DNA of 43,641 nt from the IMG/VR virus record IMGVR_UViG_3300029985_000071, positions 1 to 43,641 of that record, one strand, 5' to 3'. The notes under the pieces were generated by a model. It did no database searches and had not been told where the DNA came from. It worked only from the letters and a program-made list of their open reading frames with translations. Every line of letters starts with the position of its first letter. Positions within the stretch are counted from its first letter, which is position 1. The position numbers and the translations under genes are program-made. Of the stretch, positions 13,354 to 41,983 are shown one piece after another. This DNA comes from a virus.

Positions 13354-13377
13354 CTACAGCCCTTCGTGCTCATAATT

Positions 13378-13629: not shown

Positions 13630-13658
13630 GACGCTCTTTGCATCTGTGATCCGCTTGC

Positions 13659-16616
13659 CTAGTTCGTACGATACTCTGCGCTTGCGCTTAGATTTGCCGT
13701 CGTGCATGCTCCTGTCGGGATACTCCAAACAAGATAATGACCTGCTGTCAGAGTTGCATTGCTTATCGTGCCCACATTGAAGGTTGCGCCAGTGATTGTT
13801 ACGCTCCCAAGCAAGGTTGGGCTACTACACGATCCCGCAGTAGTCCCACAGTCATAAAGTGTTACGACAGGACTTACTGTGCAGGTGAATGAAGCTGCGG
13901 ACCCTACGATGTTCTCTATCGTCCCACTCTGCACTATCCCTACCGGGGAATAGTTTGCGTTGGCAAGAGGGGATAACATGCCGGTTGACATTGTTATAAA
14001 TGCCCGTGGGTTTTTTGTGAATGTACTATCTCCGCTGAGGGTAATCGATTTCGTCGTCATTGCTGGGCTTATAATTGAGCCCGAATCTGTTTCTACGATG
14101 ATATTATTCATCGCTCCCGCCGTACACGTGGAATCAATGAACGAGGAAATTTGCTCGATATAATTTCCTCCAATACCTGTGCAGTGAACGCCAGCATCAT
14201 AAAGAATATTATTGGCAACATGCTGCGGCATATATACCCAGCCTGCCGCCCCGTTCATCGTTATACCGTTCCCGCTTGTGGCCGATACACGATTTCCAGT
14301 AACGATTTCTCCCATTCCGTTGAGTTGAATGCCGTTGGTGCTGGTTTGGATATTATTATTGTGAATATACGTTCCTGTCGCAGTGTTGATGATGGGATTA
14401 GCAAGACCCCAGAGCCAGTTTTCAGAAACTTCTGCCTGGTTGTCAGGAGAAGAGCCTGGACTATAGACAGCAATTCCAGTTCCAGTGTAGGCTGTATTTG
14501 GACTGATCCAGTTATCTTTTACCGTAGCCGAATTGCTGGTAATTGAGAACCAAGGCGTACTTGCAGATGGTGATCCGTCTCCTGCCCAGTTAGCTTCTAC
14601 GTCGATAGATTCACCCGCAGTAATGGATAGGCACGGAGACCCTTCGCATGTATTGTTCTTGAACGTCACTGCTTCTGGGTTAGCAATCTGGAATATGTAG
14701 TTTTGACCGACAACCGACGAGTTCGCCTCTACACGTTCAATATCGACGACATTGGTCTGTGACCCGACTAGATTGACTGGATGAGCGAAGTAGTTAATGA
14801 TAGAATCTGTGATATACAAAAACCCACCAAAACCCATCCAAATTCCGGTGGATGTTGTGTCGTTTGGCCCTGTGAAATACACATGCGAAATCCACAAACC
14901 TTGTGCCCACTGTGAGCTATTTGATAAATTGATCGCACAAGATGAGTTAGTCGTAGGAACGCTTATACTTCCGTTCGTTATCATTACCTGCGAAGAACGT
15001 TGAGTTATGAATTGGGTGAATTGCAGATAACCGTTCACGCCAGAGCTACACGCGCCTCCTCCCGTACCTGTCAATTGAAGGGTCGAACCATTCAGGTCTA
15101 GGTAGAAACTATTTCCATCCGTAACGGTCAAACTTGACACTTGGCATATAGAGTTTGGCGGAAGAATAATCCATCCGCCATGAGCAGCACTAATAGCCGC
15201 ATTTAATGCGTTTGTATCGATAGCGACGGAACCAGTGCAGGCCGATATATTAAAAGCCAGAAGTTGGGCAACAGGGGATTTGAAGTATGTAGTGGGGGCT
15301 GCGATGGTGCCTGAGAACGATGCGCTGGTGCCGTTGAGTGCGCCGGTCAGTGTGCCACCCGTCAGGGGCAGGTAACTACCGGATAGGGACGGAATATCAG
15401 CCGCTACCAAAGCGCCCCACACCGGAGCCGCGCTATTTGTTCCATCCCCAGTTTGCGAGAGGAACTTTTTGGTGGTTGTCGTGTTGCCCGCCAGACGTGT
15501 GGCTGCTCCGCTTGCACCGCCATAGATCGTGTCGCCGAGGGTGGTCATGGGGTTGGTAAACAGAGAAGCCATTCCACCGTCAGTCGTCCATGCGGTTGTG
15601 CTCGATCCCCCAGACGGATAGAGATTAAGGCCTGACATGGTGTAAATAGGAGCATAAACATAAGCGGGAGCCGTGACCAAAAAACCGCTATTAACTACTA
15701 AGCCACCTGTTATTAGCGCTCCCCCATCAACTTGGAATCCGCAATTTAGAGTTGATCCCATATCGGGGGGCGCGGTTCCACATGTGCCGGTGTTGCCAGT
15801 AACCACGACAGGGACCGCACCATTTAGTGTCGAATTATTAAACTGCACTTGGCCATAGCTCTGGTCGAACGCCACAGTGTTCCTGTTGTTGGAATCTCCC
15901 GTTCCTCCAAATCTCAAACCGCCAGGTCCGATGTCGTAGGTAGCGTCCGTGGCCGTCTGGTTGTACCAAGTTCCAAAACCTGGGACCTGTAGATGAATAT
16001 CAGTTGGGGTTACGCTGATCGTTGGCAAAATGCTGACTTTGCCACCGCTGCCGCCTGTGGTTGCTCCTGAGCAGCTTGTATCCGACTCTGGGAACACAAT
16101 CTGCGTACTGGTAGCTGACGTAAGATACACGTGTCCGGAGTTGGACAAGCAAGAATCAGCAAACCCGTCGCCAATGATCATCTCTTGGTTGGCTACAGCC
16201 GAATTGGCGACGATGACCGTGCAATTTGTCCCATCGCAGCTTGCAGAGGTGGCTGTGGTCGTGAAGTTCGGCGTCGAATAAATGTCTGTTTCTCCGGTTA
16301 CAGACAGGCCGCTCGTGATCGTGGAGTTTCCCAACGTATTTGTGCCGGTGAACACCGGGACATAGCCGGGCGTGCCTGAAATGCCAGTCCCCTCTTGCTC
16401 CCATCCGTTTGGTCCGCAGTTATACCGTGTGTTTGGCGTAACGGCAGTATTCTGGTAAGGCATTCCATAGTAAATGGAAGAGCAGGCGATAGTAGGAGCG
16501 CCACTGCCTACAATTAAAGGCCAGTTAATTTGCGCGACTGGGTTTATTTTTTGCTGTGCGACACCCGCACTTACTAGCGAAAACAGAATTATGAAACTAA
16601 CGAAAGTAGAGCGCAT
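13659..16616 (-). CDS. Large fibre-like protein with signal peptide and right-handed beta-helix (possible depolymerase)
   Basis: I place the start at ATG 16616 (MRST...), nine bases after GGGGGAT; ATG 16622 is also possible. The first 21 residues are a textbook Sec signal (MRSTFVSFIILFSLVSAGVA then Q-Q). The N-terminal half is Gly/Thr/Ser-rich fibre-like sequence. About halfway comes A-L-N-A-A-I-S-A-A-H-G-G-W-I-I-L-P-P-N-S, the entry motif of the pectate-lyase-like beta-helix of phage tailspikes, followed by about 300 residues of short beta-helix turns. A compact beta domain ends the protein. Tailspikes of this type bind or cut surface polysaccharide. A signal peptide is unusual for a virion protein. 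It overlaps the preceding gene slightly and is followed by the lysis cassette. Confidence 0.75.
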   Translation of the reverse strand: MRSTFVSFIILFSLVSAGVAQQKINPVAQINWPLIVGSGAPTIACSSIYYGMPYQNTAVTPNTRYNCGPNGWEQEGTGISGTPGYVPVFTGTNTLGNSTITSGLSVTGETDIYSTPNFTTTATSASCDGTNCTVIVANSAVANQEMIIGDGFADSCLSNSGHVYLTSATSTQIVFPESDTSCSGATTGGSGGKVSILPTISVTPTDIHLQVPGFGTWYNQTATDATYDIGPGGLRFGGTGDSNNRNTVAFDQSYGQVQFNNSTLNGAVPVVVTGNTGTCGTAPPDMGSTLNCGFQVDGGALITGGLVVNSGFLVTAPAYVYAPIYTMSGLNLYPSGGSSTTAWTTDGGMASLFTNPMTTLGDTIYGGASGAATRLAGNTTTTKKFLSQTGDGTNSAAPVWGALVAADIPSLSGSYLPLTGGTLTGALNGTSASFSGTIAAPTTYFKSPVAQLLAFNISACTGSVAIDTNALNAAISAAHGGWIILPPNSICQVSSLTVTDGNSFYLDLNGSTLQLTGTGGGACSSGVNGYLQFTQFITQRSSQVMITNGSISVPTTNSSCAINLSNSSQWAQGLWISHVYFTGPNDTTSTGIWMGFGGFLYITDSIINYFAHPVNLVGSQTNVVDIERVEANSSVVGQNYIFQIANPEAVTFKNNTCEGSPCLSITAGESIDVEANWAGDGSPSASTPWFSITSNSATVKDNWISPNTAYTGTGIAVYSPGSSPDNQAEVSENWLWGLANPIINTATGTYIHNNNIQTSTNGIQLNGMGEIVTGNRVSATSGNGITMNGAAGWVYMPQHVANNILYDAGVHCTGIGGNYIEQISSFIDSTCTAGAMNNIIVETDSGSIISPAMTTKSITLSGDSTFTKNPRAFITMSTGMLSPLANANYSPVGIVQSGTIENIVGSAASFTCTVSPVVTLYDCGTTAGSCSSPTLLGSVTITGATFNVGTISNATLTAGHYLVWSIPTGACTTANLSASAEYRTN

Positions 16617-16983
16617 AAACATTATCCCCCAGGCTAGTGGCAAAGTTGAGAGTTACAACAGCGCCTAAAATGGTGTAGTCAATTCCTCTACGTTGCACAT
16701 CGCCGTTCCAGCAAAAAGCAAGGAGTAACGTAGGAACGTAACTAAGCGTGTAGACGTTACCGGGAAAACTACCGGACGGTTCCTCATTGACAAACGAGTT
16801 TGCTAGAACTGTTCCAATATCCGCTATAGTGAAACTTTCTACGGATAAAGCTGGGACTGTGATAAGACCGCCAAAAATAAGGTCTAATAAATTCCAGTTG
16901 TAGTTAGTAGGAACTTGCCAATTAGGTTGGTTGAATGCTGCTATTTGCAGCCCAATGTTCGGAGTGGTTGTCTCACTAGCCAT
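16597..16983 (-). CDS. Small tail fibre-region protein
   Basis: ATG 16983 follows GGGGTATTAAG; an in-frame GTG at 17058 is also possible but lacks a good site. The 128-residue product begins MASETTTPNIGLQIAAFNQP and ends with a beta-rich segment (L-L-A-F-C-W-N-G-D-V-Q-R-R-G-I-D-Y-T-I-L-G-A-V-V-T-L-N). This F-x-N-G, Y-T-x-x-G-x-x-I/V-T-L pattern is common at the ends of phage fibres and receptor-binding proteins. It lies between a fibre/baseplate protein and the large beta-helix protein, so it is likely a tip or adaptor component. Confidence 0.6.
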   Translation of the reverse strand: MASETTTPNIGLQIAAFNQPNWQVPTNYNWNLLDLIFGGLITVPALSVESFTIADIGTVLANSFVNEEPSGSFPGNVYTLSYVPTLLLAFCWNGDVQRRGIDYTILGAVVTLNFATSLGDNVYALYFR

Positions 16984-17098
16984 CTTAATACCCCATTGCA
17001 ATCCAGTCAAAATATGCTGCCGTAAATCTGGGTGAACTTCAGTTGCTATGTTATACACAGCGCCAGATCTGCAGTCATCAACGCCCTAACGAATCTGA

Positions 17099-17947
17099 TT
17101 ATAATACTGCAAACAGTAGGTAGCATCCCGTGAGCGTAATGTCAAAACTCGTGGGATTGTGCAGCACGTAATGCACAAGTGAATCATCAGCATTATATCC
17201 ATATGACAAGGTTAATCCTTCCCAGGGAATACCTGAGGATGTAGATACCCAGTTACACGTCAGGGGCGTGTTGATAGACGCTAATGAAAGTGACACACTC
17301 TGATCAGATGAAGACGCGCCTGCTGGTATCGTCCCTGACACAACGTGAGACAATGTTTGAAGGGGGCCACCACCTGCAGGAGGAAACAGCGGCGCTACTG
17401 GCCGTAGCGTTAGTGCAGCATCCGCTAGAAAAATCTGCGCGCTAAGACTTCCTGCCGTAGAAGTCGGCTGAGACGCGGTAGGCCCAAATCCGCTTCCAAA
17501 TGTTATGCCCCATCCTCCGGAGCCATTCTGAATATATAACATGGTATATAATCTGCCCGCGACTACGCCGTCTAATGCTAGCGCAGTAGGGCCTTGTAGA
17601 GGAATTGCGAAGGCACTGAAAGCCGCAGCGTTGAGCGTCATAACACTGCTCCACGCTAAGTTCTGAAGGCCACCTTGCTGATCAGCCGTAGTTAGGATGT
17701 TAGCTAGTTGAGCTACTAGCGCGGAGTAGCTAGCATCTGACACGCTAAAGCCCTTGTTAGCCAGCATCTGACCTAGAGCCGCTGTCATCGTAGTAACTTG
17801 ATACAGAGTCTTATTTGCAGACATGGAAGGAAAGATAGCGCCTACGCCTGCGCCATCTGTCCTAGTGGAGTCAGATACGTATTCCGCGTCAGTTTCTTGA
17901 TTAGCCTGCATAGGATTAAACTGAAGAAAATTCGTAGTGCCTGGCAT
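17099..17947 (-). CDS. Tail fibre or baseplate-attached fibre protein
   Basis: 282 residues, beginning with a conserved-looking motif L-Q-F-N-P-x-x-A-N-Q-E-T-D-A-E-Y that I associate with phage fibre proteins attached to the baseplate. It continues with D-S-T-R-T-D-G-A, a helical region, and a Gly/Ser/Thr beta-rich C-terminal half. AAAGGATTCTAA precedes the ATG. It follows the DUF2612 baseplate gene directly, the usual place for the first fibre gene. No enzymatic motif. Confidence 0.65.
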   Translation of the reverse strand: MPGTTNFLQFNPMQANQETDAEYVSDSTRTDGAGVGAIFPSMSANKTLYQVTTMTAALGQMLANKGFSVSDASYSALVAQLANILTTADQQGGLQNLAWSSVMTLNAAAFSAFAIPLQGPTALALDGVVAGRLYTMLYIQNGSGGWGITFGSGFGPTASQPTSTAGSLSAQIFLADAALTLRPVAPLFPPAGGGPLQTLSHVVSGTIPAGASSSDQSVSLSLASINTPLTCNWVSTSSGIPWEGLTLSYGYNADDSLVHYVLHNPTSFDITLTGCYLLFAVL

Positions 17948-17959
17948 TTAGAATCCTTT

Positions 17960-18631
17960 CTACTGCCATTTACCGATGTCGAACCCAGCGATGAATGCGT
18001 CGTTTAGATCAAACCCAAAGGCCGGAAGTGCGCCTAAAGCAAAGTTGTACTCCACGCCTTCTGGACGCGGCACGATTAAACCGTTCTGCACTACTCCAGT
18101 AGTAGCACCATTTACGGCAAAGCCGCATATCATATCAATCAAAATACTAGACGGCACGCCCTTAATACGCAGTGTCGCCGTCATATTTTGATTATCAGCT
18201 ATGATGATGCGCGCCCTCGGAAATAGGCTGATCCATATAGCATACAGACTTCCTATGGTTCCATCCCATTGGTTCTGCGCTATCTTAGCTTTGATATAAG
18301 TTCTGTAAGTCGTGTCGTCCAATACAGGACTTACATCAAAGCTAGGCTGAAACGGCAGCATTCTCACAGCGCCTACGCAAGTACCCAACACGTCTAGTTG
18401 GTTTCCCTCTGCGCTGTCAAGATCTAGTGCGGTGTCCAGCTTAACTAGGCACTGCGATACATCATCAAATTTCTTCAAAAGAACGTACATTAACTTACTG
18501 AACTTAGGGGAGTTGATGTACTGAGAAGTCACTAAATTTTGGTAGTAGCCTAATGGCAAAGTTTCTATGGGGGAGTTGCCATAGCCGCCGCGCCCATACC
18601 CCTGAGTGCCGTAGAATGGATTGTTCGGCAT
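17960..18631 (-). CDS. DUF2612-family baseplate protein (gpI-like position)
   Basis: Residues 60-140 carry L-D-T-A-L-D-L-D-S-A-E-G-N-Q-L-D-V-L-G, then L-D-D-T-T-Y-R-T-Y-I-K-A-K-I-A-Q-N-Q-W-D-G-T and S-L-Y-A-I-W. This is the DUF2612 pattern of contractile-tail baseplates. Members occupy the place of P2 gpI/Mu gp48 between the J-like wedge protein and the fibres. Three bases separate it from the gpJ-like stop. The C-terminal 30 residues are Phe/Gly/Asp-rich and may contact the fibre. Confidence 0.85.
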   Translation of the reverse strand: MPNNPFYGTQGYGRGGYGNSPIETLPLGYYQNLVTSQYINSPKFSKLMYVLLKKFDDVSQCLVKLDTALDLDSAEGNQLDVLGTCVGAVRMLPFQPSFDVSPVLDDTTYRTYIKAKIAQNQWDGTIGSLYAIWISLFPRARIIIADNQNMTATLRIKGVPSSILIDMICGFAVNGATTGVVQNGLIVPRPEGVEYNFALGALPAFGFDLNDAFIAGFDIGKWQ

Positions 18632-18634
18632 AAG

Positions 18635-19849
18635 CTACACCACCGTTACAATTACGTTAGCCGGCAGACCTGTTGCGGCGCTATAGAACGTAGGCATCGG
18701 AACATCGACGACTCCTGTAGGAGAACTCGATGTGCCAACGGTCAAAGCCTGAACGCCAAACGTAGGCGCGGGCAGATTAGCATTCACAGACATAGCCATG
18801 TAGCTGACGGCTGAAATTGAAACTGTTTCACCGATGGCTAATTCATTCAGATAATTAGTAATTGCCGTCTGAACTGCGGTCTGAACCGAAGAAGTAAGAG
18901 CCCCTGAGTATCCGTGCAGAGACACGCTAACATAGATAGGCACGTAAGACGGCCTGTAGAAACTTATCGTCTCCTGCATCCCCATCACGTTGGGATCGTC
19001 TACTAGCACTGAAGTCGTGCCGTTCGTGAGACACCCAATAGTCTTCCTGCTGTAAATAGCTGTAGCTACAGTTAAGTCTGAACCACCCTCCACTACGATG
19101 GAGATAGAATGCGCCGGATTGCCCCAACTATCAACTGACCCAGTAGGATTCTCAATAGATGTACCAGGCCCACCGGGTGTGGGGTAGCCTGGTGCTACGC
19201 GCGTCACGCCTGCGGTAGATAATACAACTGCCACTGTAGTGGCCATGGGCGTTAAGGCTGGCAGAGACACTGAGATAGCTTGGCGAGACCGAAGGGCTGA
19301 GTCAGATTCTACGGCGGCACCTACTGTAGCCGCCGCGCTATTTGTGACACTAGCCCAACCATTAACAGGCGTAGAAATAATGTTTATAGTTCCTGGTTCT
19401 GCAGAGATAGCACCGGGCGTAGTGCACGTGGCCACGACACTTCCCGGAATAGTCACTTCTCCCAGACTCCATAAATACCCGTTGGTGTCCTGCGCCACAG
19501 CGTTGACCAGAGGAACACCGGCTGTTCCTGCACAAGTTACAACTGCCGTAGAGTAAGTGTACACATCACGCGTTAGACCATTCAGTTTAGCTGCCCTGTC
19601 CAACCCTGTTCCTACAGCTGTGGTAGGAGACGACTGATTGTAAGCCAACTGCAGCCCAGAACAAACGTCGGCGTTCTTTAGAGAGATAACAGACAGTAGC
19701 TGATATATGGCTGAATCAGACTCTACGTACTGATTGCTTCCGTAGATGTTAAGGTATGCCTGCACATTGTCAGCCAAAATGCTGGCGTAAGTAGGAACGG
19801 TCAATCCTGCAGAACCCACTGAAGGGGCCGCGTAGGCTGGTGCAGTCAT
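18635..19849 (-). CDS. Baseplate J-like wedge protein
   Basis: 404 residues. The N-terminal A-S-I-L-A-D-N-V-Q-A-Y-L-N-I-Y-G, S-D-S-A-I-Y-Q-L-L and G-T-G-L-D-R-A-A-K-L-N-G are typical of the baseplate J family, and residues 110-230 have its central fold with E-S-D-S-A-L-R-S-R. Such proteins form the wedge ring that rearranges to trigger contraction. It follows the gp25-like gene and precedes the DUF2612 gene, the standard order. Confidence 0.9.
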   Translation of the reverse strand: MTAPAYAAPSVGSAGLTVPTYASILADNVQAYLNIYGSNQYVESDSAIYQLLSVISLKNADVCSGLQLAYNQSSPTTAVGTGLDRAAKLNGLTRDVYTYSTAVVTCAGTAGVPLVNAVAQDTNGYLWSLGEVTIPGSVVATCTTPGAISAEPGTINIISTPVNGWASVTNSAAATVGAAVESDSALRSRQAISVSLPALTPMATTVAVVLSTAGVTRVAPGYPTPGGPGTSIENPTGSVDSWGNPAHSISIVVEGGSDLTVATAIYSRKTIGCLTNGTTSVLVDDPNVMGMQETISFYRPSYVPIYVSVSLHGYSGALTSSVQTAVQTAITNYLNELAIGETVSISAVSYMAMSVNANLPAPTFGVQALTVGTSSSPTGVVDVPMPTFYSAATGLPANVIVTVV

Positions 19850-19854
19850 GTGTT

Positions 19855-20241
19855 CTAGCTCCCCAGACTCGCCGAGTTACCTGGCAAAGACGAATCTACC
19901 GTGACGGACCCAAAAGCCGTCTGTGCCGTAGCTGTGAATGTGAACTTTCCGTCTGAAAAGTCAGTGGACAGATTACTAATCCCAGTGACGTAGGGCGTGC
20001 CTAAGACGCAAGTTTGAATGGCCGCCTGTATTGCAGCTTGGCAACTCTTAGAAGCCAACTTGCCAAGCATAGACTGAAACACAGGAAGGCCAATAGTAAG
20101 GTCTTCCCACCACTCGCCTAAAAATAGCTTCAGGCGAGTAAGAATGGCTTGGCGTACAGCAGCTTGATCTGACAAAGCTGCGCCGGGGTCAAACACTGGA
20201 TCATTATCAGCGTCTAAAAGCAGGTACGTAATGTACGACAT
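19855..20241 (-). CDS. gp25/gpW-like baseplate wedge protein (Mu gp46-like)
   Basis: 128 residues from ATG 20241, which overlaps the spike gene stop (TGATG). The sequence D-A-A-V-R-Q-A-I-L-T-R-L-K-L-F-L-G-E-W-W-E-D-L-T-I-G-L-P matches the DUF2634/gp46 type, where a helix with L-F-L-G-E-W follows an N-terminal strand pair (Y-L-L-L-D-A-D-N-D-P). These proteins clamp the sheath start to the baseplate. Position between spike and J protein agrees. Confidence 0.85.
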   Translation of the reverse strand: MSYITYLLLDADNDPVFDPGAALSDQAAVRQAILTRLKLFLGEWWEDLTIGLPVFQSMLGKLASKSCQAAIQAAIQTCVLGTPYVTGISNLSTDFSDGKFTFTATAQTAFGSVTVDSSLPGNSASLGS

Positions 20242-21053: not shown

Positions 21054-21065
21054 TTGGCGGTGCTC

Positions 21066-22100: not shown

Positions 22101-22428
22101 TATCGCCCCACAAAAGAGTGAATTGGCTCAAGTTACTGGGCCCTGGGTAGTCTTCAGAAGACTCGCTAGTGTTCAGCAAGTAAGCGTTACCAATTTGAAG
22201 ATACTGATATTGTGTCAGTAAATTAGCCGCAGGATACCACCCCGTTACAAGAGGAACAGATGCTACCAATAAATTTCCATTAACATCTGAAATACTCATG
22301 TCCCAGTAACCTGCCATGACGTTGTAGCTAACCCCTAGATTAAGCGTCAAGACAGACGAATTTACGGTTAGTGATACACTGAAAGTCTGGCCATCAGCGT
22401 TAGATAAGGGAACCAGCTGGTCGCTCAT
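22093..22428 (-). CDS. Baseplate plug protein (Pam3 gp18-like)
   Basis: 111 residues from ATG 22428, coupled to the upstream stop (TAATG). The pattern M-S-D-Q-L-V-P-L, Q-T-F-S-V-S-L, Y-W-D-M-S-I-S-D-V-N-G-N-L-L, Y-L-Q-I-G-N and D-Y-P-G-P-S-N-L, F-T-L-L-W is what I know from the small plug protein of the cyanophage Pam3 baseplate and relatives. It sits between the Dit-like and hub genes, as in that phage. Confidence 0.75.
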   Translation of the reverse strand: MSDQLVPLSNADGQTFSVSLTVNSSVLTLNLGVSYNVMAGYWDMSISDVNGNLLVASVPLVTGWYPAANLLTQYQYLQIGNAYLLNTSESSEDYPGPSNLSQFTLLWGDNV

Positions 22429-23186: not shown

Positions 23187-23187
23187 G

Positions 23188-25530: not shown

Positions 25531-25545
25531 ATCCTTGCTCCTTTG

Positions 25546-26004: not shown

Positions 26005-26015
26005 CGATTAGCTCC

Positions 26016-27632: not shown

Positions 27633-27643
27633 TCAATTTGCTC

Positions 27644-28261: not shown

Positions 28262-28262
28262 T

Positions 28263-28619: not shown

Positions 28620-28622
28620 GAG

Positions 28623-30151: not shown

Positions 30152-30166
30152 ACTAATACGCCCCTG

Positions 30167-30574: not shown

Positions 30575-30710
30575 AGTGCTACTTCTCTCTTCCGCCTTGC
30601 TTCAGAAGGCTTGGTTATTGCTGCGCAGCGGCAGGGTGCCAAGCGGGGCGGTGGCAAGGATTCACCGAACCGCCCGAGCGCTTACCGCCGCGCAACCTTG
30701 TGGTTAAAGA

Positions 30711-31763: not shown

Positions 31764-31774
31764 GGTCTCCTCTC

Positions 31775-32590: not shown

Positions 32591-32592
32591 GG

Positions 32593-34296
32593 TTACTTAC
32601 CTCCCTGAATAGATTCGTCATAAGCCGCCTGCAGCTTGGCAATACGATCATTCGCAGCGTCGCCGACACGGGCGTGATTAGGATTGCGTGGAAGTTTAGC
32701 ATCGCGGGCACGCGCTGCACCGGCAAAGCCGCCATAGCTGCCCGTAGAAGCGCGGCTGGAACGAGAGACGTGAGCCAGGGCAGTGTTGAACGCCCGTTGT
32801 GTAGCCGCGTCGTGGCAACGAGCCACAAACGGACGCAGCATATTCAAGGTAGCGATGGCCCCGTCAGCAGCACGCGCCTTGTCCTTACCCTTGAGATCGG
32901 CGACCTCCTCCTCAGGCTCTTCCTCCTCTTCAAGTTCCTCGCCCGCGTTCTCAAGAACCTCACCAAGGTCGTCCTCAGCTTCTGCCGCCTCTTCCTCCTC
33001 CACTTCGGCAGGATTCTCGAGTGCCTCGTCCAGAGCCTTAGTGTCCAGCTTAGGCTCTTCCTCAAGCGCCTCATCAGCCGCGTGTTCCGGTTCCGCTTCC
33101 TCTTCGGAAAGGAACTGACCGAGTAGGGCCTTCAACTCTTCGATGTCAGCATCCTTGACCTTACGGTCTTTGGCGCGCTTACGATCATCAGCAGGCTCAA
33201 CGTCCTCCCGATCTAACAGATCATCCAGGGCATCGTGCATAGCCTTGCGCTTAGCGTCGTCGGCGTGACGGTCACGTGCACGCTTACGATCTTCAGCAGT
33301 CTCATGGTCATGGTCGTCCTCTTGCATTTCCACGTCACGAGCCTTCTTACGATCATCAGCAGGTTCATGATCATGGTCATCCTCTTCGATGTCCAAGTCA
33401 CGAGCGCGCTTACGGTCACGTGCGCGCCGGTCCTCAGCTTCCTCCTCTTCAAGGTCACGAGCCTTTTTGTCTCGTGCCTTCTTATCATCAGCTTCAACGG
33501 GAGGAGTCTCTTGCAAGGCCTCAGCCGCCTCAGCCACCTTCTCAGGATCTGCATCAACGGCAAACGCCTTGAGGGCGAGACCGTGCAGATGCTTAATGAG
33601 ATTGGTCACAGGGGTTTTCTCCTTTTGTACGGTTAGTGATGCGGTTGAGGGTTTAGTCGTCGCCGCCTCAGTGTCGGCAGGCGGCGCTATAAATTGTGGT
33701 GCTGCGTCACCAATAGCGATGAGGTCACCAGCGCGTCCTTTTGGAACGACCGCTGCATGGTTTCCCACCATATCGCATTGGATGATCTTTTTACCGTCCC
33801 TAGCAATTCCGAAGTCGTACCCCAAACTGATGTCGCGTGCAGTCTTATTGCGCACCTTATCAATCAATGACTTTTTGGAAATTACCAGGTCGGCAATAAC
33901 GGGCCACTCCCCATCTTCCATGGGATGCGGCCCCTTACGAACATTTTGAATATGCCCACAGGCGTACTCCGAGAAGTTCTCCGGAGTAACAAAGCCGGGC
34001 GGATGGTTATCCGTAATTGCCTTGCCGTTAAGTGAGGCAAGGAAGTCCGGATCAAACACCGCCGAAGACGGGCGGTAAAGGTCGATGTTAGCTGATGGAT
34101 TACTAACGTCGACGCCTAACTGCTCCGCCGGTTCCTGGGGCAAATCCCTGATAGCATACTCTTGGAATCCAGTCCTCGCGATGGGGCAGCCTACAATAAC
34201 TAGGAAGCCCTCTGGAGTTTCAGAGATGTGCTCTGATAAGGGAGAAACTAGGTAGCCGTGCGCCGTCTTAGTGGCACGAATGATAGTGTCAGGCAT
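32593..34296 (-). CDS. Prohead protease (DUF2213 type) fused to an acidic scaffold-like tail
   Basis: 567 residues. The first 200 carry the DUF2213 pattern: V-I-V-G-C-P-I-A-R-T-G-F-Q-E-Y, D-L-Y-R-P-S-S-A-V-F-D-P-D-F-L-A-S-L-N-G-K, T-D-N-H-P and A-C-G-H-I-Q-N-V. His and Ser residues typical of prohead proteases are present, but I cannot fix the catalytic set. The rest is a long charged region with imperfect repeats of the form D-R-K-x-A-R-D-x-E-x-x-E-D-D-H-D-H-E, then Glu-rich segments and a short C-terminal domain (A-A-R-A-R-D-A-K-L-P). This reads as a scaffold cleaved during maturation. It overlaps the upstream gene by eight bases. Confidence 0.75.
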   Translation of the reverse strand: MPDTIIRATKTAHGYLVSPLSEHISETPEGFLVIVGCPIARTGFQEYAIRDLPQEPAEQLGVDVSNPSANIDLYRPSSAVFDPDFLASLNGKAITDNHPPGFVTPENFSEYACGHIQNVRKGPHPMEDGEWPVIADLVISKKSLIDKVRNKTARDISLGYDFGIARDGKKIIQCDMVGNHAAVVPKGRAGDLIAIGDAAPQFIAPPADTEAATTKPSTASLTVQKEKTPVTNLIKHLHGLALKAFAVDADPEKVAEAAEALQETPPVEADDKKARDKKARDLEEEEAEDRRARDRKRARDLDIEEDDHDHEPADDRKKARDVEMQEDDHDHETAEDRKRARDRHADDAKRKAMHDALDDLLDREDVEPADDRKRAKDRKVKDADIEELKALLGQFLSEEEAEPEHAADEALEEEPKLDTKALDEALENPAEVEEEEAAEAEDDLGEVLENAGEELEEEEEPEEEVADLKGKDKARAADGAIATLNMLRPFVARCHDAATQRAFNTALAHVSRSSRASTGSYGGFAGAARARDAKLPRNPNHARVGDAANDRIAKLQAAYDESIQGGK

Positions 34297-36634
34297 GCTT
34301 AGTCACCTTGACGGGGAGGGGAAAAGTGTCATGCGCAATCTGCCGCGCTTTGACATACAATCCGTTATCTAGTTTGAACGTGCCCTGTGCATCAGGCCCA
34401 GAAACGACCTTTGCATACTTCGACTGTCCTGTATTGAGTAAACGCGGTTCCACGCGCACCTTGTCACCTGGTGCGAACTCACTCCTAGCGTGAAAGCCGC
34501 TGGCCTCACCCCACGGAGATTTATTCTTCAATTGATAAGAAGGGCTGTCCTTCCCCCTCCCCGCCGCGCTCTTAGCCGCCATCCCTTTAGCCCCATACTT
34601 CTTCCGGCCAATGCTTGCCGCCAGCGCATCGGGGTCAGTAATACCTTTGCGATGCGCCAGGCTGTGCTCCAACTTAGCAAAGCCCTCATGCTCATCACAG
34701 ACCGGAACGGGGGAGGGGGGAGAATCTTTAGCAGTGCGTGCCAGCTCGTACTTCAGATCCTTGATCTTTTCTTCAATCTCACGCGTGTTACCACCGTGCT
34801 GTGGGTGCCCCGGCTGCCGTACTTCGTGAAGTAGTCTTTCGCACTCTGCTAGTTCTTGGCGCAGGCTTCCAACACTGCGCGCATCCTCCGCCGGAGCCAC
34901 CACAGTTCCCTCTTCTTCTAGCGCCACGTCCTCCCCAGCACGAGTCCGTTCCACGGCGGACTCTAAGGCGCGCTCGGCGGAGTCAAACGCCTGTACCTTA
35001 CCCCGGCTAGGATGCTCGTACTGGTCGCTGTAACCGTGTGCGGCCTGACGCTGGCACGCGGCGATACCGTCCCGCGCTACCTGCTCACTACGTTGGTCGC
35101 CCGCCTGGCGGAAGCCGTGAGCGGCAGCGCGGTAGGCATCAAGCGCACATGCGTGGTCCTGAGCGACTTCGGCCTTGCGAGCAACGACTAGCTTATCGCT
35201 AGCCTTAGTATTTTCCTGGGCAGCTCTGCCAACACGCTCTGACTCACGGCGATCAGCGCTAACTGAACCTTGAACTAGCTTTCCATTAAGATAAGCTGCC
35301 CACGACTCACTGGCCATTCCACCATAAGCGGGATCATGCTTCTGATGAACTTTTTCTACTGTAAGCGCATCCTCCGCCGCAACTCTATAAGGCGTCACTT
35401 TCTCTCCCCGTTCTCGCAGCGTCTGCTCGTGAGCGCGCAGCCGGTTGGTATCATCGTTAGGGCGCTCACGGTCTAGCTTAGTTTGGATTTCCTTACGGCG
35501 CTTGAAGTAAGCCTCCTCATCGGCCTTGGAGAAGTCCTTAGCGCCAGTGACTTTGACGGGCGTAAGATCCTGCGCCACCGTCAGCCCCGCATTATGCGCC
35601 GCGAGCTTTTGGCGCTTTACGGAGAGGGGAAGGGAGTCTTTTGCGCTCTTCTGCAAAGCCGCCTCAGCCGCCTCAGCCGCCTCAGCCGCCTCAGCCGCCT
35701 CAGCCGCCTCAGCCGCCGACTTAGAGTAATACCCCTCACCTACGACAGTATGGTCAGGCCGATACACAAACCACTTTACGCCGCGCTGCGCGATGTAGTA
35801 ACCAGAGTCAGCATCCGCCCCTCTATGGTCGTTGGCAGGAAGATGCACTGGCTCGGTAATCTCAACGGGGAGGGGGAGGGAGTCGTGAGCGCGCCCCACC
35901 TCTAAAGCGTTCTTAGCTTTTTCTAAATCCATCCAGTATTTATCGCTTCCCTTGCCTTCGCCGTATCGCAGCCAAGCCTTCCGAGCTTTTGTAACGTCCT
36001 GCTCTAGTTTAGTGATCTCACTTGGCAGCACTGCGTCTTTCCCTCTCCGGTCATTAACAGGAAGATCCTGTGCCTCGGTCAGCCCCGCGTTGTGCGCAGC
36101 AAGTTTGGCCTTCTTGACGGCGATGGGAAGCGGCAGACCATCCTTTCCCCTCACCGGAACCGGCGCGACGAAGTGCTCTTTGCCAGATACCGGACCGATG
36201 GCACTACCATACTTAACTGCTTCGCCGGCAGATTCGCGCGCTGCGCTATGTTTGTACGCCTCACCTTTTGTGGCGTGCCAGGTGGTCTTACCCTTTTCAG
36301 GGTTGTCTGCATCCTTCCCCCTCACCGGAACCGGCGCGGGGAGGGCGTCTTTTGCTTCGAGAGTGTCACGATGGAACGTGGTGACAATGCCATTTCCCAA
36401 CTTAACTTCTACAGAAGTCCCACGAACTCTTTGCACCGTTCCTTCGGCACCGTTATACTGACCACCGTAATGCGTGACCTTATCGCCAGCTTTCAATTGG
36501 CCGTCCTTCCCCTCCGCCTCATTCTTCTTAGCATAGGCAATAGCGACAGCCTGTTTCTGCGGCTTACCAGCCTTGATCTCAGTTTCTACGTTCTTACTGA
36601 ACGCAGCAGGACTCTTGCTTGTAATCAACGGCAT
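34289..36634 (-). CDS. Large modular inner-head protein with repeated linkers
   Basis: 781 residues, highly charged. The N-terminus (S-K-S-P-A-A-F-S-K-N-V, A-G-K-P-Q-K-Q-A-V-A-I-A-Y-A) is a motif I know from many phage proteins. Then come a KOW-like segment (49-90), a short linker P-A-P-V-P-V-R-G-K-D-A-D, and a duplicated piece K-L-A-A-H-N-A-G-L-T-x-A-Q-D-L (177-191 and 343-356). A tryptophan/tyrosine-rich segment (277-303), an AEA repeat (307-325), coiled-coil-like regions and a second KOW-like domain near the end follow. Linkers of the form A/G-K-D-A/S-x-P-x-P-V occur about a dozen times. Its place next to the protease suggests internal proteins packaged in the head and perhaps cut by it. 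Confidence 0.6.
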   Translation of the reverse strand: MPLITSKSPAAFSKNVETEIKAGKPQKQAVAIAYAKKNEAEGKDGQLKAGDKVTHYGGQYNGAEGTVQRVRGTSVEVKLGNGIVTTFHRDTLEAKDALPAPVPVRGKDADNPEKGKTTWHATKGEAYKHSAARESAGEAVKYGSAIGPVSGKEHFVAPVPVRGKDGLPLPIAVKKAKLAAHNAGLTEAQDLPVNDRRGKDAVLPSEITKLEQDVTKARKAWLRYGEGKGSDKYWMDLEKAKNALEVGRAHDSLPLPVEITEPVHLPANDHRGADADSGYYIAQRGVKWFVYRPDHTVVGEGYYSKSAAEAAEAAEAAEAAEAAEAALQKSAKDSLPLSVKRQKLAAHNAGLTVAQDLTPVKVTGAKDFSKADEEAYFKRRKEIQTKLDRERPNDDTNRLRAHEQTLRERGEKVTPYRVAAEDALTVEKVHQKHDPAYGGMASESWAAYLNGKLVQGSVSADRRESERVGRAAQENTKASDKLVVARKAEVAQDHACALDAYRAAAHGFRQAGDQRSEQVARDGIAACQRQAAHGYSDQYEHPSRGKVQAFDSAERALESAVERTRAGEDVALEEEGTVVAPAEDARSVGSLRQELAECERLLHEVRQPGHPQHGGNTREIEEKIKDLKYELARTAKDSPPSPVPVCDEHEGFAKLEHSLAHRKGITDPDALAASIGRKKYGAKGMAAKSAAGRGKDSPSYQLKNKSPWGEASGFHARSEFAPGDKVRVEPRLLNTGQSKYAKVVSGPDAQGTFKLDNGLYVKARQIAHDTFPLPVKVTKHA
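35658..35711 (-). repeat. Six 9-bp tandem repeats (A-E-A)
   Basis: gccgcctca repeated six times without change, in frame, giving an Ala-Glu-Ala helix in the modular inner-head protein. Confidence 0.9.
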
Positions 36635-36678
36635 GACGTGTATCTCCTTTTCAAGTGTGCGGCCATGCCGCGCGGTTA

Positions 36679-36993
36679 TTAACTGCCCGAAGTCAAGCTA
36701 ATGGTGGAGGAAGTGCCAGGCGTAAACGTAGAGATGGCAATGTAGGTAAACCCGCCCGTCTTAATGTCCACAGCCAAGTTAGACCCAGGCCAGACTACGG
36801 TGCCTGTACCGTTCGCTACCGTGACGGCACTGCTCGTTCCCAGGTTGAAAAACACCGGCACATTGCCCAGGTTGTTAATGACCAAAACTTGATCAGCCGA
36901 AACCGTAGTGCCTGGAATAAGGACGGGTGTTGACGACGACCCCGCGCTAGTACCCTGCGAGGCGTCAATTTTGAGATAATTACTTAGTGCCAT
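36679..36993 (-). CDS. Small beta-rich head protein, possible decoration protein
   Basis: 104 residues starting MALSNYLKIDASQGTSAGSS. Strongly beta with short strands (Q-V-L-V-I-N-N-L-G-N-V-P-V-F-F-N-L-G, Y-I-A-I-S-T-F-T-P-G-T-S-S-T-I-S-L-T) and no charged patches. AAGGAG precedes the ATG. Its size and setting among head genes suggest a capsid decoration or head-fibre component; I recognise no specific family. Confidence 0.55.
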   Translation of the reverse strand: MALSNYLKIDASQGTSAGSSSTPVLIPGTTVSADQVLVINNLGNVPVFFNLGTSSAVTVANGTGTVVWPGSNLAVDIKTGGFTYIAISTFTPGTSSTISLTSGS

Positions 36994-37010
36994 TCTGTTT
37001 TCTCTCCTTG

Positions 37011-37910
37011 CTAGTTTCTTTCTCGGTAATCTTTTAAGGCGGACTCAGCCTTGTAAACTTCCATGTGAGCATCACTGAGCTTCCTACGGGCCTTAATTTC
37101 TCTCATACTCTGCAACCGCTCGCCTTTATTCCTGCGTGCTTCTACAGCTAGGCTTACCGAGTTGCGCGCTGCCTCTACATGCTTTTCAGCACGAGTTAGT
37201 GCCACCTGTAAACTTTGTTCTGAAACATCATTTGCCCTAGCCCGATCCATCACACAATCCAAGGCCCGATGCAAACGAGCGCGGCGGTCCGCACAATCGG
37301 GGCAAACTACCTTGCCATTAACCTCTGCCACGTCGTCACCGTTCAACGGAGCACCACACATTTGGCACTTAGTAACTCCGGAGCGCGGGTCAGCGTCCTT
37401 CGCTGTCTGTCCATACTTATACTTCACTTTGCGCGCCCAGGCTTTATCTTCATCAGAAGATTTAGAATCAGCCAGTACTTCATTAGCAAGTGCTAAAAGA
37501 TTATACGCGGTTTCATCCAGGCGCTCTTTCACAGGCAACATTTGCGCGTCCTTCGCTAACTTACTCACTAGCACGCCATACCTTTCCGGTTTCGTCAAGC
37601 CCTGTCCCGTACCGTCACTAGCCGGGTGGGGGTCCCAAACCGGCTTACCGTCTTTACCAACAATGGCGTGCTCGCCCCCGCGCGGGCTGGTACCCAGGAT
37701 GAAGTGATAGCCGACGGGATCATTATCCTCCGTGATAGGAAACTCTTCGTAACGCAGTCCGTACCGGGCGAGGAACTTATCCACGCCGGGGTCTTGATTA
37801 GCCAGAGGGAAGTCTGGAACTTGGGATTCACGTAAGTTGAGCAGGCTTGCAAGTGACGCTCTAAAGCACGTCCCGTTCTCGCCCGTGCGGCTTTGGATTA
37901 CGCCGCGCAT
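37011..37910 (-). CDS. Papain-like cysteine peptidase-like domain with zinc ribbon
   Basis: 299 residues. The N-terminal domain starts T-G-E-N-G-T-C-F-R-A-S-L-A-S-L-L with Cys15 at a helix start, and has His81 in G-G-E-H-A-I-V-G and Asp93 in V-W-D-P-H-P, the Cys-His-Asp order of papain-like peptidases. A linker with A-K-D-A-D (170-174) follows. Next comes a zinc ribbon (C182-x2-C185 and C203-x2-C206), then a charged coiled coil to the end. The same A-K-D-A linker is found in the inner-head proteins. The gene lies among head genes, so it could act in head maturation or be injected. Activity is unproven. Confidence 0.6.
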   Translation of the reverse strand: MRGVIQSRTGENGTCFRASLASLLNLRESQVPDFPLANQDPGVDKFLARYGLRYEEFPITEDNDPVGYHFILGTSPRGGEHAIVGKDGKPVWDPHPASDGTGQGLTKPERYGVLVSKLAKDAQMLPVKERLDETAYNLLALANEVLADSKSSDEDKAWARKVKYKYGQTAKDADPRSGVTKCQMCGAPLNGDDVAEVNGKVVCPDCADRRARLHRALDCVMDRARANDVSEQSLQVALTRAEKHVEAARNSVSLAVEARRNKGERLQSMREIKARRKLSDAHMEVYKAESALKDYRERN

Positions 37911-38134
37911 GCAGGTATCACCTTAGTCTCTGTCTTGGCAAAGAAGTTATGATCCAGCATAGCGGTGGCGTCCTGCTCGCGCGCGAACTTGACGGCGTCG
38001 TTCAAATCTGCGCTGTAGGTCATCTCACCTAAATAGACGGTGAAGTAATAAGGCCGGTCTAAGCCAGTAGTGACGATGACCCAACCAAATTCTAAACTTA
38101 CCTGCACCTGTAACTTATCAATCACTGTCGCCAT
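37898..38134 (-). CDS. Unrecognised 78-aa protein
   Basis: ATG 38134 stands nine bases after GGAG; earlier in-frame starts lie within the upstream gene. Mixed beta and helix (V-S-L-E-F-G-W-V-I-V-T-T-G-L, Y-F-T-V-Y-L-G-E-M-T-Y). It overlaps the genes on both sides (17 and 13 bases), which supports it as a real coupled gene. Function unknown. Confidence 0.55.
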   Translation of the reverse strand: MATVIDKLQVQVSLEFGWVIVTTGLDRPYYFTVYLGEMTYSADLNDAVKFAREQDATAMLDHNFFAKTETKVIPACAA

Positions 38135-38327
38135 TGCTAACGTCTCCATGCTGGTGTTCGATCTCCCGCTCCTCGCGCCAGAGTAGCAGGTTAAGCGGAT
38201 TAGTGCGGATAGGCGCGGCATGACGTTCTTTACCGAGTGGCCCCCACTGAGGAGCCCGTACTATAGCGCCGCATAGCAGGCATTGATACGTGAATGAGTT
38301 TCCAATTTCTTCCAGCTTAAACGTCAT
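38118..38327 (-). CDS. Unrecognised 69-aa protein with a C-x-x-C motif
   Basis: Begins MTFKLEEIGNSFTYQCLLCGAIV; the C-x-x-C with nearby aromatic residues looks like half of a zinc ribbon, but no second Cys pair follows, only a few His. The end is polar and Asp/His-rich. AAGGG precedes the ATG. It overlaps the next gene by 17 bases. Confidence 0.5.
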   Translation of the reverse strand: MTFKLEEIGNSFTYQCLLCGAIVRAPQWGPLGKERHAAPIRTNPLNLLLWREEREIEHQHGDVSNGDSD

Positions 38328-38361
38328 GGCCCTTGCCGCCTAGTGACAAAGTTTTCGTCAG

Positions 38362-39957
38362 CTACTGAATTGTTACCCCTTGAATTGTTACCCCTTGAAT
38401 TGTCAGGTAGGTCGTCGCCCCGCTTGAATACTGATACGCCCCTGCATCCCATGCCCCTGACGAGGGACGTGATGCTCCTGCTTTGTCTGTGTCCAATGCG
38501 GTGATACTAAGGCTCGTCAGGTTTGCTCCCAGGCCAATGGCGGGTGATCCTGATTGCAGGTGATAAGCCAAATTGAGTTTGGGGTCAGAGATCAAGCTAT
38601 GCGTATCGAATCCTAGATTTTGCAAAGAAGCAAATGTGTAAATCGTGGGCGAGCCACCATAATTGTAGCTAGATTGCGGCGCGCCGCCGCTATTTGTCAG
38701 CCAAATGTTGTAATCAGATGCGGTTAAATCAATAGACAGTGAGGTTGGATTGTAGTCCCCAATCGCGTAGCGTACATTAGTACTGATATTGTTCTCGATT
38801 GTTGCCTTGGAATATACGGATGTACCTAAACTGGCGTTCAAGGTAATGGCCTGATTCACACCGCTTCCTCCCACAATCGTATTGTTGTAAATATAAAAGG
38901 GACCGCCAGTCGCATAGGCCCAGATATATCCATCGCAGGGCAGTGAACCGTTATCAACCATGAGGTTATTAAAGATCGTGCACGCAGTCCGTTCTCCGCA
39001 AGCTATATATCCAGTAGGTGATCCCCCGCCAAGACTGCCGTGAAAATAGTTGTTAAAGATCCTAAATGTGTCAAGCGCTCCGAGTCCCGCACATGTGTAA
39101 CCACCGTCCGCATCGTTGAAAACGATTATCCCGTCCGTATGATACGTTGAAACGGGGAATTGCCAGTTCAACCAGCCGGAAAAATCGTTATTGTAAATCG
39201 CTACCCCCGTGGCCGTGGAACTGGCGTTACAAGCGCCCACGACAACACTCCAGGGGTGGTCGCTGATTGTGTTGTTGTAAACGGCCAGGTTACTCGCATC
39301 GTACCCACTATCAAAATCAACCCACAAACCTGCGCGCGCGTTGTTCAACACATTGTCGTGCACGTTATCGCCCGTGGATGTACCTTGCAAATAGATGTCG
39401 CCTGTGTTCTGTCCGTTTGTGTCCGTTGCACTGGAACTGCTGCCCTGGTTGAGGTAGATGTTTTGAATGGTAATATTACGGATTTCGATATTTGAGCAGT
39501 TGACGGCGAATATCCCATAACTGGATTGGCTATAGGCTAGACTTGTTCCGTTCGCAGTGTTCTGGATGATTCCGTTCGTTCCACCATTGACGATAAGATA
39601 ACTTTGTCCTGCGCAAAAGATCGCGCCGGAACTCCCCGAACCCCAATATGGCGCTGACATTTGCGCGTTCGTGTCGAACAGCAACGTGATTGGACTTCCG
39701 GATGTTCCGCTTCCCTGAAAAGTGAAGCCAGTCTGTCCCGCCGTTCCCGTAAACGTTCCGCAGAACAATACGGTGGTTCCAGGCCCAATCTGGTTCGCCC
39801 CGGCGCCCCAATTGGCGGCATTATTAAAGAATGCCGGTGTTTGAACGCTCGTGGTGCAATTGCCTGTCGCGCTGCCAGTCTGAGTGATGTAGACATTCGC
39901 AGCCGATGCCCATGATATGACGGGAACGAGCAGCAACAAAAGTATGAGTTTTCTCAT
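38362..39957 (-). CDS. Secreted-type parallel beta-helix protein, fibre-like, with choice-of-anchor-Q-like end
   Basis: ATG 39957 follows GGAGAGG by nine bases. The protein starts with a clear Sec signal (MRKLILLLLLVPVISWASA then A-N-V-Y-I). The body is a right-handed beta-helix: many turns of the form N-N-x-I-x-x, I-E-I-R-N-I-T-I-Q-N, F-R-I-F-N-N-Y-F-H, F-Y-I-Y-N-N-T-I-V. The end has G-S-P-A-I-G-L-G-A, D-T-D-K-A-G-A-S-R-P, D-A-G-A-Y-Q-Y, the pattern of the choice-of-anchor-Q region in bacterial exported proteins. The last residues are a tandem G-V-T-I-Q encoded by a 15-bp repeat (38371-38400). It may be a polysaccharide-binding or -cutting protein taken from a bacterium. Confidence 0.75.
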   Translation of the reverse strand: MRKLILLLLLVPVISWASAANVYITQTGSATGNCTTSVQTPAFFNNAANWGAGANQIGPGTTVLFCGTFTGTAGQTGFTFQGSGTSGSPITLLFDTNAQMSAPYWGSGSSGAIFCAGQSYLIVNGGTNGIIQNTANGTSLAYSQSSYGIFAVNCSNIEIRNITIQNIYLNQGSSSSATDTNGQNTGDIYLQGTSTGDNVHDNVLNNARAGLWVDFDSGYDASNLAVYNNTISDHPWSVVVGACNASSTATGVAIYNNDFSGWLNWQFPVSTYHTDGIIVFNDADGGYTCAGLGALDTFRIFNNYFHGSLGGGSPTGYIACGERTACTIFNNLMVDNGSLPCDGYIWAYATGGPFYIYNNTIVGGSGVNQAITLNASLGTSVYSKATIENNISTNVRYAIGDYNPTSLSIDLTASDYNIWLTNSGGAPQSSYNYGGSPTIYTFASLQNLGFDTHSLISDPKLNLAYHLQSGSPAIGLGANLTSLSITALDTDKAGASRPSSGAWDAGAYQYSSGATTYLTIQGVTIQGVTIQ

Positions 39958-39979
39958 GTCAGTGGACCTCTCCCCTCCC

Positions 39980-41983
39980 TTAGTTGATACGCCAGCACAC
40001 AGATGCAATATCGCCTGTCGCTACTGACGCGACGGACGAATAAGAATTGATTATGAATGATGTTCCAACTACGACTGTGCTTACCGTGGGAACACCTACT
40101 GCGGAACTTCCATTCCCGATGCAGCGCGTTAGTTGAATATTGCAGGTGGTTCCGTTTGGCGTGCAGGCAGCGGTAGTGCTCACGGTATAGGTTCCTGAAA
40201 CCAGCGTGACCATTCCAAACACAGGAGAATGAACTCCGCTATCTACGACATTTCCGTTAGCGTCATAACTGGCTAAGTCTCCGCTTGTTTTCGCCGCGCT
40301 GGTGGTTTCCTGCGCATATCCCCCAGTGCCCGTGCTGCCGCCCATGGCTGTACCGCTATTGATCGTAATACTGGTCACAGATGGCGCACTCGTGAAACTC
40401 GGAGCCCCTGCCGATCCTGTTGTATTTCCCAAGACACTATGGGCCACAGCTGACGGAGTTATCAACTGACTACTGGCATTACTCCCCAACACAGCCGAGG
40501 ATACCGGCACGGTTGCCCCATTTACCTGCGTGGTGTTTGCGTTGCCAAGCTGTCCTTCAAGCTGCCAATACGTCCCGTCAAAAGTTGCGCTAATCCAGTG
40601 TGAAGTCAATAAATCATTAGCGATCAGAGTTCCAGAGCCGCCCCACTTTTTGATGGTTGCCGCTGCTGCTCCGTTGACCGCCAGGGTTGACGATGCAGTG
40701 TTGGCGTACAGCGCCTCGAACTGGATATGATCGCCAGATGCTGGGGTGAATGTCGGGGCCGTCGTGCAGGTGTACGCCGTGGTGCTGGTGTTGGACTGTA
40801 CGCAGTTAGCCGGAAGACTTTCGTTATGGCTAGTAGCCGCAGTAATTTGTGAAGAAGAATTTGAGGACAGTACGGAAGCCGAAGCAGGAACGGAGGCTCC
40901 GTTGACCTGAGTAGCACTGGCGCACGCCCCATTCAATGCCGTGCACGCTCGCGATGGCCCTGTGGCGTTCTCGTTGACCATAAGGTTGCCAACGGTGGCA
41001 TCAGAGGAAATAACTACATTACCAGATGCCCCAGCGGTAGCAGTCCCCGCCGAAAAGGTAATGCCTTGAGTCGTACCTGAAATAGCAACAGGTCCAGTAA
41101 GCGTTGGTGAAGTGGATAGCACCGCGCTGCCCGTCCCTGTCGTGGCCGTTACAATCAACTGCGAAGAAGAGTTACTGCCGATAACCGTTGCACTGGCAGG
41201 AACGGAGGCTCCGTTGACCTGAGTAGCACTGGCGCACGCCCCATTCAATGCCGTGCACGCTCGCGATGGCCCTGTGGCGTTCTCGTTGACCATAAGGTTG
41301 CCAACGGTGGCATCAGAGGAAATAACTACATTACCAGATGCCCCAGCGGTAGCAGTCCCCGCCGAAAAGGTAATGCCTTGAGTCGTACCTGAAATAGCAA
41401 CAGGTCCAGTAAGCGTTGGTGAAGTGGATAGCACCGCGCTGCCCGTCCCTGTCGTGGCCGTTACAATCAACTGCGAAGAAGAGTTACTGCCGATAACCGT
41501 TGCACTGGCAGGAACGGAGGCTCCGTTGACCTGGACAACCGTCATTGCCAATGATCCAGCCGTATTCGTGGCGTCTCCGGTGTGCGCTGGCTCGGAGGTA
41601 GCGGGAAGTGTGGTCGTCCATACAGGAGATGCGCCGACCGTTCCGGTTCCGGTCTGGACTAGAATCCGGGGTGTGGTACTGGTATTCGGAGCGACCATTG
41701 CAGTCGTGCTGGGTGCGCTTTGAATCGGGAGGCTGCCAAGCACTCCTCCAGCCAAGCCGCTTGCGGTTCCGCTGCTACTAGGAGCCGTCAAAGTCCACAC
41801 ACCCTGTAGGCACTGATACAAACCCGGTGCGAGCCCGCCATTTACCTTAGTAATGGAAACAGGCTCTGAGCAGGGGCCTACCGGCGCAGTACTCAATACC
41901 CTGATATTCTCAAAATTAGCCTGCGCCAGGCAGATAGACGAAGCTATGACAAACCCAAATAAAATCTCTACAAATCGTTTCAT
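39980..41983 (-). CDS. Fibre-like repetitive protein with signal peptide
   Basis: ATG 41983 overlaps the portal stop (ATGA), with AGGAG upstream. The first 21 residues form a Sec signal (MKRFVEILFGFVIASSICLA then Q-A). The mature part is Ser/Thr/Gly/Ala-rich and beta-structured, with repeated T-Q-V-N-G-A-S-V-P-A-S-A-x-V-I-G-S-N-S-S-S-Q and a perfect 104-residue duplication. Similar T-Q-V-N-G-A blocks are known to me from fibre-like proteins of environmental phages and from bacterial exported proteins. It lacks a visible catalytic domain. Position between portal and beta-helix protein is unusual for a fibre gene. Confidence 0.65.
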   Translation of the reverse strand: MKRFVEILFGFVIASSICLAQANFENIRVLSTAPVGPCSEPVSITKVNGGLAPGLYQCLQGVWTLTAPSSSGTASGLAGGVLGSLPIQSAPSTTAMVAPNTSTTPRILVQTGTGTVGASPVWTTTLPATSEPAHTGDATNTAGSLAMTVVQVNGASVPASATVIGSNSSSQLIVTATTGTGSAVLSTSPTLTGPVAISGTTQGITFSAGTATAGASGNVVISSDATVGNLMVNENATGPSRACTALNGACASATQVNGASVPASATVIGSNSSSQLIVTATTGTGSAVLSTSPTLTGPVAISGTTQGITFSAGTATAGASGNVVISSDATVGNLMVNENATGPSRACTALNGACASATQVNGASVPASASVLSSNSSSQITAATSHNESLPANCVQSNTSTTAYTCTTAPTFTPASGDHIQFEALYANTASSTLAVNGAAAATIKKWGGSGTLIANDLLTSHWISATFDGTYWQLEGQLGNANTTQVNGATVPVSSAVLGSNASSQLITPSAVAHSVLGNTTGSAGAPSFTSAPSVTSITINSGTAMGGSTGTGGYAQETTSAAKTSGDLASYDANGNVVDSGVHSPVFGMVTLVSGTYTVSTTAACTPNGTTCNIQLTRCIGNGSSAVGVPTVSTVVVGTSFIINSYSSVASVATGDIASVCWRIN
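40885..41532 (-). repeat. Perfect 312-bp tandem duplication plus a 24-bp third start
   Basis: Bases 40885-41196 and 41197-41508 appear identical throughout when read side by side; 41509-41532 repeats the first 24 bases and then diverges. The unit is 104 codons, so the frame is kept. Confidence 0.9.

Follow-up and report, generated by a model that had tools for sequence, protein, structure and literature searches.

The host range of tailed phages is decided by their fibres and spikes, which according to the textbook view are assembled in the cytoplasm. The beta-helical tailspikes known so far (those of Sf6, P22 and Dettilon and the K1/K5 lyases) are made without signal peptides and bear an N-terminal head-binding domain. 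Phage DGR target proteins also lack the signal peptides that bacterial ones have (PMC6199706). Some phage proteins do take the Sec route of the host, as is the case for secreted endolysins such as Lys44 of fOg44 and for SAR endolysins (PMC6116005), but these are lysis enzymes, unlike the fibre-like proteins described below. A literature search with most subscription journals outside its scope returned no report of signal-peptide-bearing tail fibres as a class; a leader on a fibre is already on record in single database entries.

We have analyzed the whole 43,641-base record of the uncultivated virus IMGVR_UViG_3300029985_000071, hereafter the window. Its minus strand holds a myovirus head-tail block with portal, maturation protease, sheath, tape measure region, hub, baseplate J and DUF2612 genes. 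Three fibre-like genes, A (13659..16616), B (38362..39957) and C (39980..41983), are all encoded on this strand at the coordinates given in an earlier note on this DNA, and the plus strand opposite them contains stops throughout. Gene A occupies the receptor-binding slot behind the genes for the baseplate J-like wedge protein (18635..19849; phrog_6) and the DUF2612 baseplate protein (17960..18631; PF11041, phrog_587); these are followed by a fibre stub (17099..17947) and a leaderless stand-alone virion-type module (16597..16983; all minus strand), whose end shares 20 bases with the start of A. The stub is a short protein homologous to the N-terminal region of the conventional tail fibres found in our control phages (hhalign probability 97%, E 3e-11). 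B and C are located between the portal (DUF1073) gene (41980..43605, minus strand; PF06381, phrog_146), which lies directly upstream of C, and the head maturation protease (32593..34296, minus strand; phrog_530 and related), which bounds this region downstream. At its C-terminal end the portal gene encodes an inorganic pyrophosphatase-like domain (PF18823), for which matches to DarB-like and large virion protein families were obtained as well. Short, perfect or near-perfect tandem repeats with units of 18, 15 and 9 bp are present in or near genes at 1-206, 4930-5030 and 35657-35717, respectively.

The N-termini of A, B and C each comprise a short positive n-region, a hydrophobic h-region and small residues at -3/-1, the features of Sec substrates cut by signal peptidase I. 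The predicted signal peptide of A, MRSTFVSFIILFSLVSAGVA (16557..16616, minus strand), ends before QQKINP, that of B, MRKLILLLLLVPVISWASA (39901..39957, minus strand), is followed by ANVYIT and that of C, MKRFVEILFGFVIASSICLA (41924..41983, minus strand), by QANFEN. Leaders were called with a simple rule-based Sec/SPase I scorer, other than SignalP, that recognized nine of ten known E. coli signal peptides and called neither of two negatives. In the head-tail block of the window, A, B and C were the only genes called. The scorer also called two ORFs of the lysis region; a small ORF of that region (10765-11346), in which a lipobox-like TGC comes after the leader, possibly encodes an outer spanin or lipoprotein. 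When the N-termini were shuffled at constant composition (5000 trials), the observed score was reached in 1.7% of the cases for A, 0% for B and 0.06% for C. Of 151 structural genes located upstream of J in related phages, only 3 were called, all at internal alternative starts. Scorer and shuffling thus agree with the earlier note, which had ascribed Sec signal peptides with n-, h- and c-regions to these three genes and had proposed signal peptide prediction as a check. Real Sec/signal peptidase I signals, and hence predicted export, are the best explanation for these leaders.

Fibre A is organized as a signal peptide, a mature N-terminal adapter, a spacer, a low-confidence beta-strand (pectate-lyase-like) region and C-terminal strands. 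The adapter domain (16392..16556, minus strand) carries a Q-x-x-INP-x-x-QINWP motif and a conserved Cys45-Cys67 pair before GW, and is modeled with a pLDDT of about 71-87 over residues 31-80; outside the adapter the model is poor (pTM 0.39). A has no match in Pfam, PHROG or NCBIfam, and tblastn with A and B against the phage collection gave no match either. The designation as fibre-like, made in the earlier note for all three genes, is based for A on gene position. In addition, A and its relatives combine a conserved N-terminal adapter with a variable remainder, as tail fibres and tailspikes do. The leaders of 14 A relatives are dissimilar (mean identity 38%), with n/h/c properties retained, whereas the motif Q-x-x-(I/V)(N/D)P-x-x-QINWP-x-x-TG-x-G-x-P starts exactly at the predicted cut between A and Q, with 52% identity over 22 residues. 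In 13/13 A relatives two cysteines are retained as a pair close to the mature N-terminus, even where a stretch of ~65 residues is inserted between them. The spacing is 20-25 residues, or 85-90 with the insertion, and the second cysteine is always found in Y/W-x-C-x(2-4)-G-W. This is the pattern of a disulfide, which is thus predicted here. Codon changes in the leaders (pN 0.10-0.14 versus pS 0.26-0.57 in three pairs) point to amino-acid constraint; the leaders of phages Tunturi 1 and Tunturi 2 differ by too few changes for a selection test.

To see whether leaders are a class feature, 46 viral contigs were fetched with baseplate J as the sole bait, which is blind to leaders (L numbers below denote relatives). 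Wherever a contig extends far enough, the gene order is J, DUF2612, the stub ('NFLQFNP...ETDA' protein), the ~130-residue module ('TTPNIGLQ...NWQVP' protein), one to three signal-bearing fibres and lysis genes. The comparison was made between 25 independent soil phages with a fibre in the slot (hand-counted, the window included and near-identical contigs merged) and 19 controls with a homologous J and fibre (11 cultured phages and eight Bacillota loci or prophages). The first fibre behind the baseplate was called signal-bearing in 23/25 soil phages and in 0/19 controls (p = 1.5e-10). The two uncalled fibres are those of L024, which is signal-peptide-like with a charged c-region, and L058, in which a leader is present and a good start codon is absent. 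A leader on the first fibre is thus a class feature of these soil phages. In several controls the conventional fibre gene is followed by a gene for a tail fibre assembly (Tfa-type) chaperone. Neither the L016 tail protein nor Tunturi 1 gp11 brought up further relatives when used for scans, and a J-alignment profile search of genome contigs gave matches from Bacillota only. L031-L033 represent one phage type with signal-bearing fibres on both sides of baseplate J. In L104 (contig of L022), another tape-measure-like gene, accompanied by a separate pair of signal-bearing fibres, is found upstream of the J block at 7903-16146; this contig either carries two tail modules or is chimeric.

The exported character of these proteins is also suggested by their composition. 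Alanine or glycine directly before the cut and glutamine directly after it are found in 36/41 fibres, while any AQ/GQ in the same stretch of leaderless genes occurs in 24/99. The median cysteine content is 1.78% in 31 signal-bearing fibres versus 0.46% in 18 control fibres (~4x; p = 5e-8); in the same soil phages, leaderless stubs contain 0.30% and J 0.74%. Most phages encode the ~130-residue module without a leader. In L054 (twice), L062, L058 and Tunturi 1 gp13, however, it immediately follows one, and the leaderless and leader-fused sets are related (hhalign 98.8%, E 7e-17). Since the same module occurs fused behind a leader, leaders are linked with a virion-type module.

Protein B consists of a signal peptide, a right-handed beta-helix from about residue 20 and a choice-of-anchor-Q C-terminus, and has leader-bearing relatives in L005 and L007. 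The modeled fold, with a pLDDT of only 57, matches polysaccharide epimerases, lyases and tailspikes, with Z scores of 25-27 to several tailspikes, and it is on this beta-helix that the designation as fibre-like is based. No PHROG match was obtained for B. Unlike the known beta-helical tailspikes, B lacks an N-terminal virion-binding domain or adapter ahead of the helix in the same model, with strands from residue 21 and structural matches from residues 16-21. The choice-of-anchor-Q-like end reported in the earlier note for one of the genes was found in B (NF041518, 34.2 bits against a curated cut-off of 25). B shares the N-terminal signal peptide, beta-helix and C-terminal Q domain with exported bacterial choice-of-anchor-Q proteins, yet, as read by eye, its end GAYQYSSGATTYLTIQGVTIQGVTIQ lacks the hydrophobic and charged tail of a C-terminal sorting signal, and its gene resides in a phage head block. 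The B relative in L007 (8013-13535), 1841 residues long, contains six CHB_HEX_C_1/Fn3-associated repeats; such domains are present in Tunturi 1 gp17, too. In L005 (1719-9494), six consecutive leader-bearing ORFs, some with doubtful starts and one of them the B relative, are located between the small terminase and a portal-like gene.

Fibre C is built from a signal peptide, a Cys-pair N-terminal motif, a tandem 312-bp repeat and a K1-lyase-type C-terminal domain, the latter at 40034..40219 on the minus strand (PF24146, K1-lyase_C, 33.3 bits against a cut-off of 27). This is the only curated fibre/spike family match among A, B and C, and supports the designation of C as fibre-like. The repeat (40884-41533) is an exact tandem duplication of 2.1 copies with 100% identity; the near-identical contigs L006, L011 and L012 are 312 bases shorter at this position, indicating that the copy number differs between close relatives or assemblies.

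Leader-bearing fibres are also encoded by cultured phages. Tunturi 1 and 2 are podoviruses isolated on the acidobacterium Tunturiibacter, of which Tunturi 1 is plaque-forming; signal peptides go unmentioned in the isolation paper (PMC11924767). In both, gp12, gp13, gp14, gp16 and gp17 have leaders at their annotated starts, and in Tunturi 1 the five leader-bearing genes among 26 plus-strand genes tested all belong to this spike cluster. Gp14 is annotated as tail spike in Tunturi 1 and as pectin lyase in Tunturi 2, gp17 as virion structural protein. As in the window class, the cluster products gp12-gp17 are cysteine-rich and carry alanine or glycine before glutamine at the cut; gp13 joins leader and module, and Tunturi 1 gp17 combines a beta-helix with choice-of-anchor-Q, as does B. 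However, the Tunturi spikes show no clear sequence relation to A, B and C of the window, only short weak matches to other soil fibres, and these podoviruses share no other demonstrated gene relation with the window phage. By analogy with Tunturi 1 only, the host of the window phage may belong to the Acidobacteriota, and it is presumably diderm. A universal leader rule for Acidobacteriota phages was considered and rejected: leaders are absent from Tunturi 3, from Tunturi 4 and from those Tunturi 5 fibres that were examined, so export is not required for infection of Acidobacteriota.

In Burkholderia phages, the annotated tail fibres Bcep1-51 and Bcep781-49 are leader-bearing, and the depositors of the Bcep records already noted a 'possible signal peptide domain'. 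Similar to A, Bcep1-51, Bcep43-48 and Bcep781-49 adjoin baseplate wedge genes and have leaders that end in a small residue before Q; their adapter (QFAPGQxLTAAQLN) is different, no sequence relation to A or B was detected, and the Bcep1 fibre is cysteine-poor (0.96%). In the control phage BgManors32, the second fibre has a leader that the rule missed through an arginine in the c-region, and the C-terminus of this spike matches tail fibre family phrog_32740. The annotated fibres and spikes of Tunturi 1 and 2, Bcep1, Bcep781 and BgManors32 contradict the premise that virion fibres are free of signal peptides.

Leaders recur at this gene position in some two dozen related soil phages, and cultured phages share the feature; we therefore propose that these soil phages and the cultured Acidobacteriota and Burkholderia phages probably send host-binding spikes out of the cytoplasm. 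A, B and C would be exported via Sec to the host periplasm late in infection, where the leader would be cut, mostly before glutamine, and the products, rich in cysteine and beta structure, would form disulfide bonds as they fold. A and its relatives would be receptor-binding tail spikes with the newly exposed, conserved mature N-terminus as docking end, and would meet the cytoplasm-built tails once the inner membrane opens at lysis. We consider the chances evenly balanced that Sec export, cleavage and periplasmic oxidative folding are followed by such joining of A-type spikes to virions, a docking step that we infer. P22 spikes attach in vitro to spike-less particles, so late docking is physically possible; to our knowledge there is no demonstrated tailed-phage precedent for an exported spike meeting a cytoplasm-built tail. 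C is likely a receptor-binding spike of the same kind as A, while B may be a free polysaccharide-acting enzyme.

The main competing explanation is that these are exported non-virion proteins, i.e., free or surface-bound exoenzymes or adhesins acting on polysaccharides of the envelope or matrix, which they would degrade or mask, thereby easing progeny release or blocking reinfection, with adsorption left to the leaderless stub and module proteins. The lyase/epimerase-like fold of B that is modeled right behind the leader, together with its choice-of-anchor-Q end, fits this explanation, as does soil phage L019, in which stub and module are present without a signal-bearing fibre in the slot. B and C moreover occupy a cargo-like slot between portal and protease, which among the relatives read there contains a signal-bearing gene in L099 and L101 and none in L097, L098 and L100. 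We regard it as possible rather than probable, given that A-type fibres with their conserved mature N-terminus are found in the receptor-binding slot, that virion-type modules are fused behind leaders and that all large spike candidates seen in Tunturi 1 are leader-bearing. Another explanation, in which captured host exoprotein genes, as raised in the earlier note, are carried as cargo and retain their leaders by inertia without a phage role, finds some ground in B and in the choice-of-anchor-Q and CHB_HEX_C_1 domains, which are typical of bacterial exported proteins. It does not suit A, which overlaps its upstream gene and whose relatives share a conserved mature N-terminus and, across some two dozen divergent phages, hold the same place after the baseplate genes; with the amino-acid constraint on the leaders and the phage spike domain in C also against it, we deem it very unlikely overall.

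Alternatively, the hydrophobic N-terminus may stay uncut and serve as a helical anchor of the fibre, either in the baseplate or, as the earlier note had suggested, in the membrane while assembly proceeds. Some virion proteins indeed use hydrophobic ends, and residues 2-16 of A, which precede the adapter, are modeled as a helix. A baseplate-binding helix is expected to be conserved in sequence, whereas the leaders diverge freely and conservation starts only past the cut, with the small -3/-1 residues and the glutamine at +1 kept; this weakens the anchor, and since cysteine pairing suits an oxidizing compartment we consider it unlikely. From the secretion proposed in the same note, export is retained as a prediction on account of signal type, cysteine content and cleavage site.

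The preferred model of exported spikes implies, tentatively and with somewhat less than even likelihood, a recurrent class of tailed phages with two-compartment assembly, in which the tail is built in the cytoplasm and Sec-exported, cut and disulfide-bonded spikes are added at lysis. Metagenomics uses the signal peptide to separate cellular from phage genes; if soil phages routinely export their spikes, this sorting rule fails for them, and standard cytoplasmic expression would misfold the spikes. If true, the two-compartment route would be testable in cultured phages, namely Tunturi 1 and 2 of Tunturiibacter and Bcep781 of Burkholderia.
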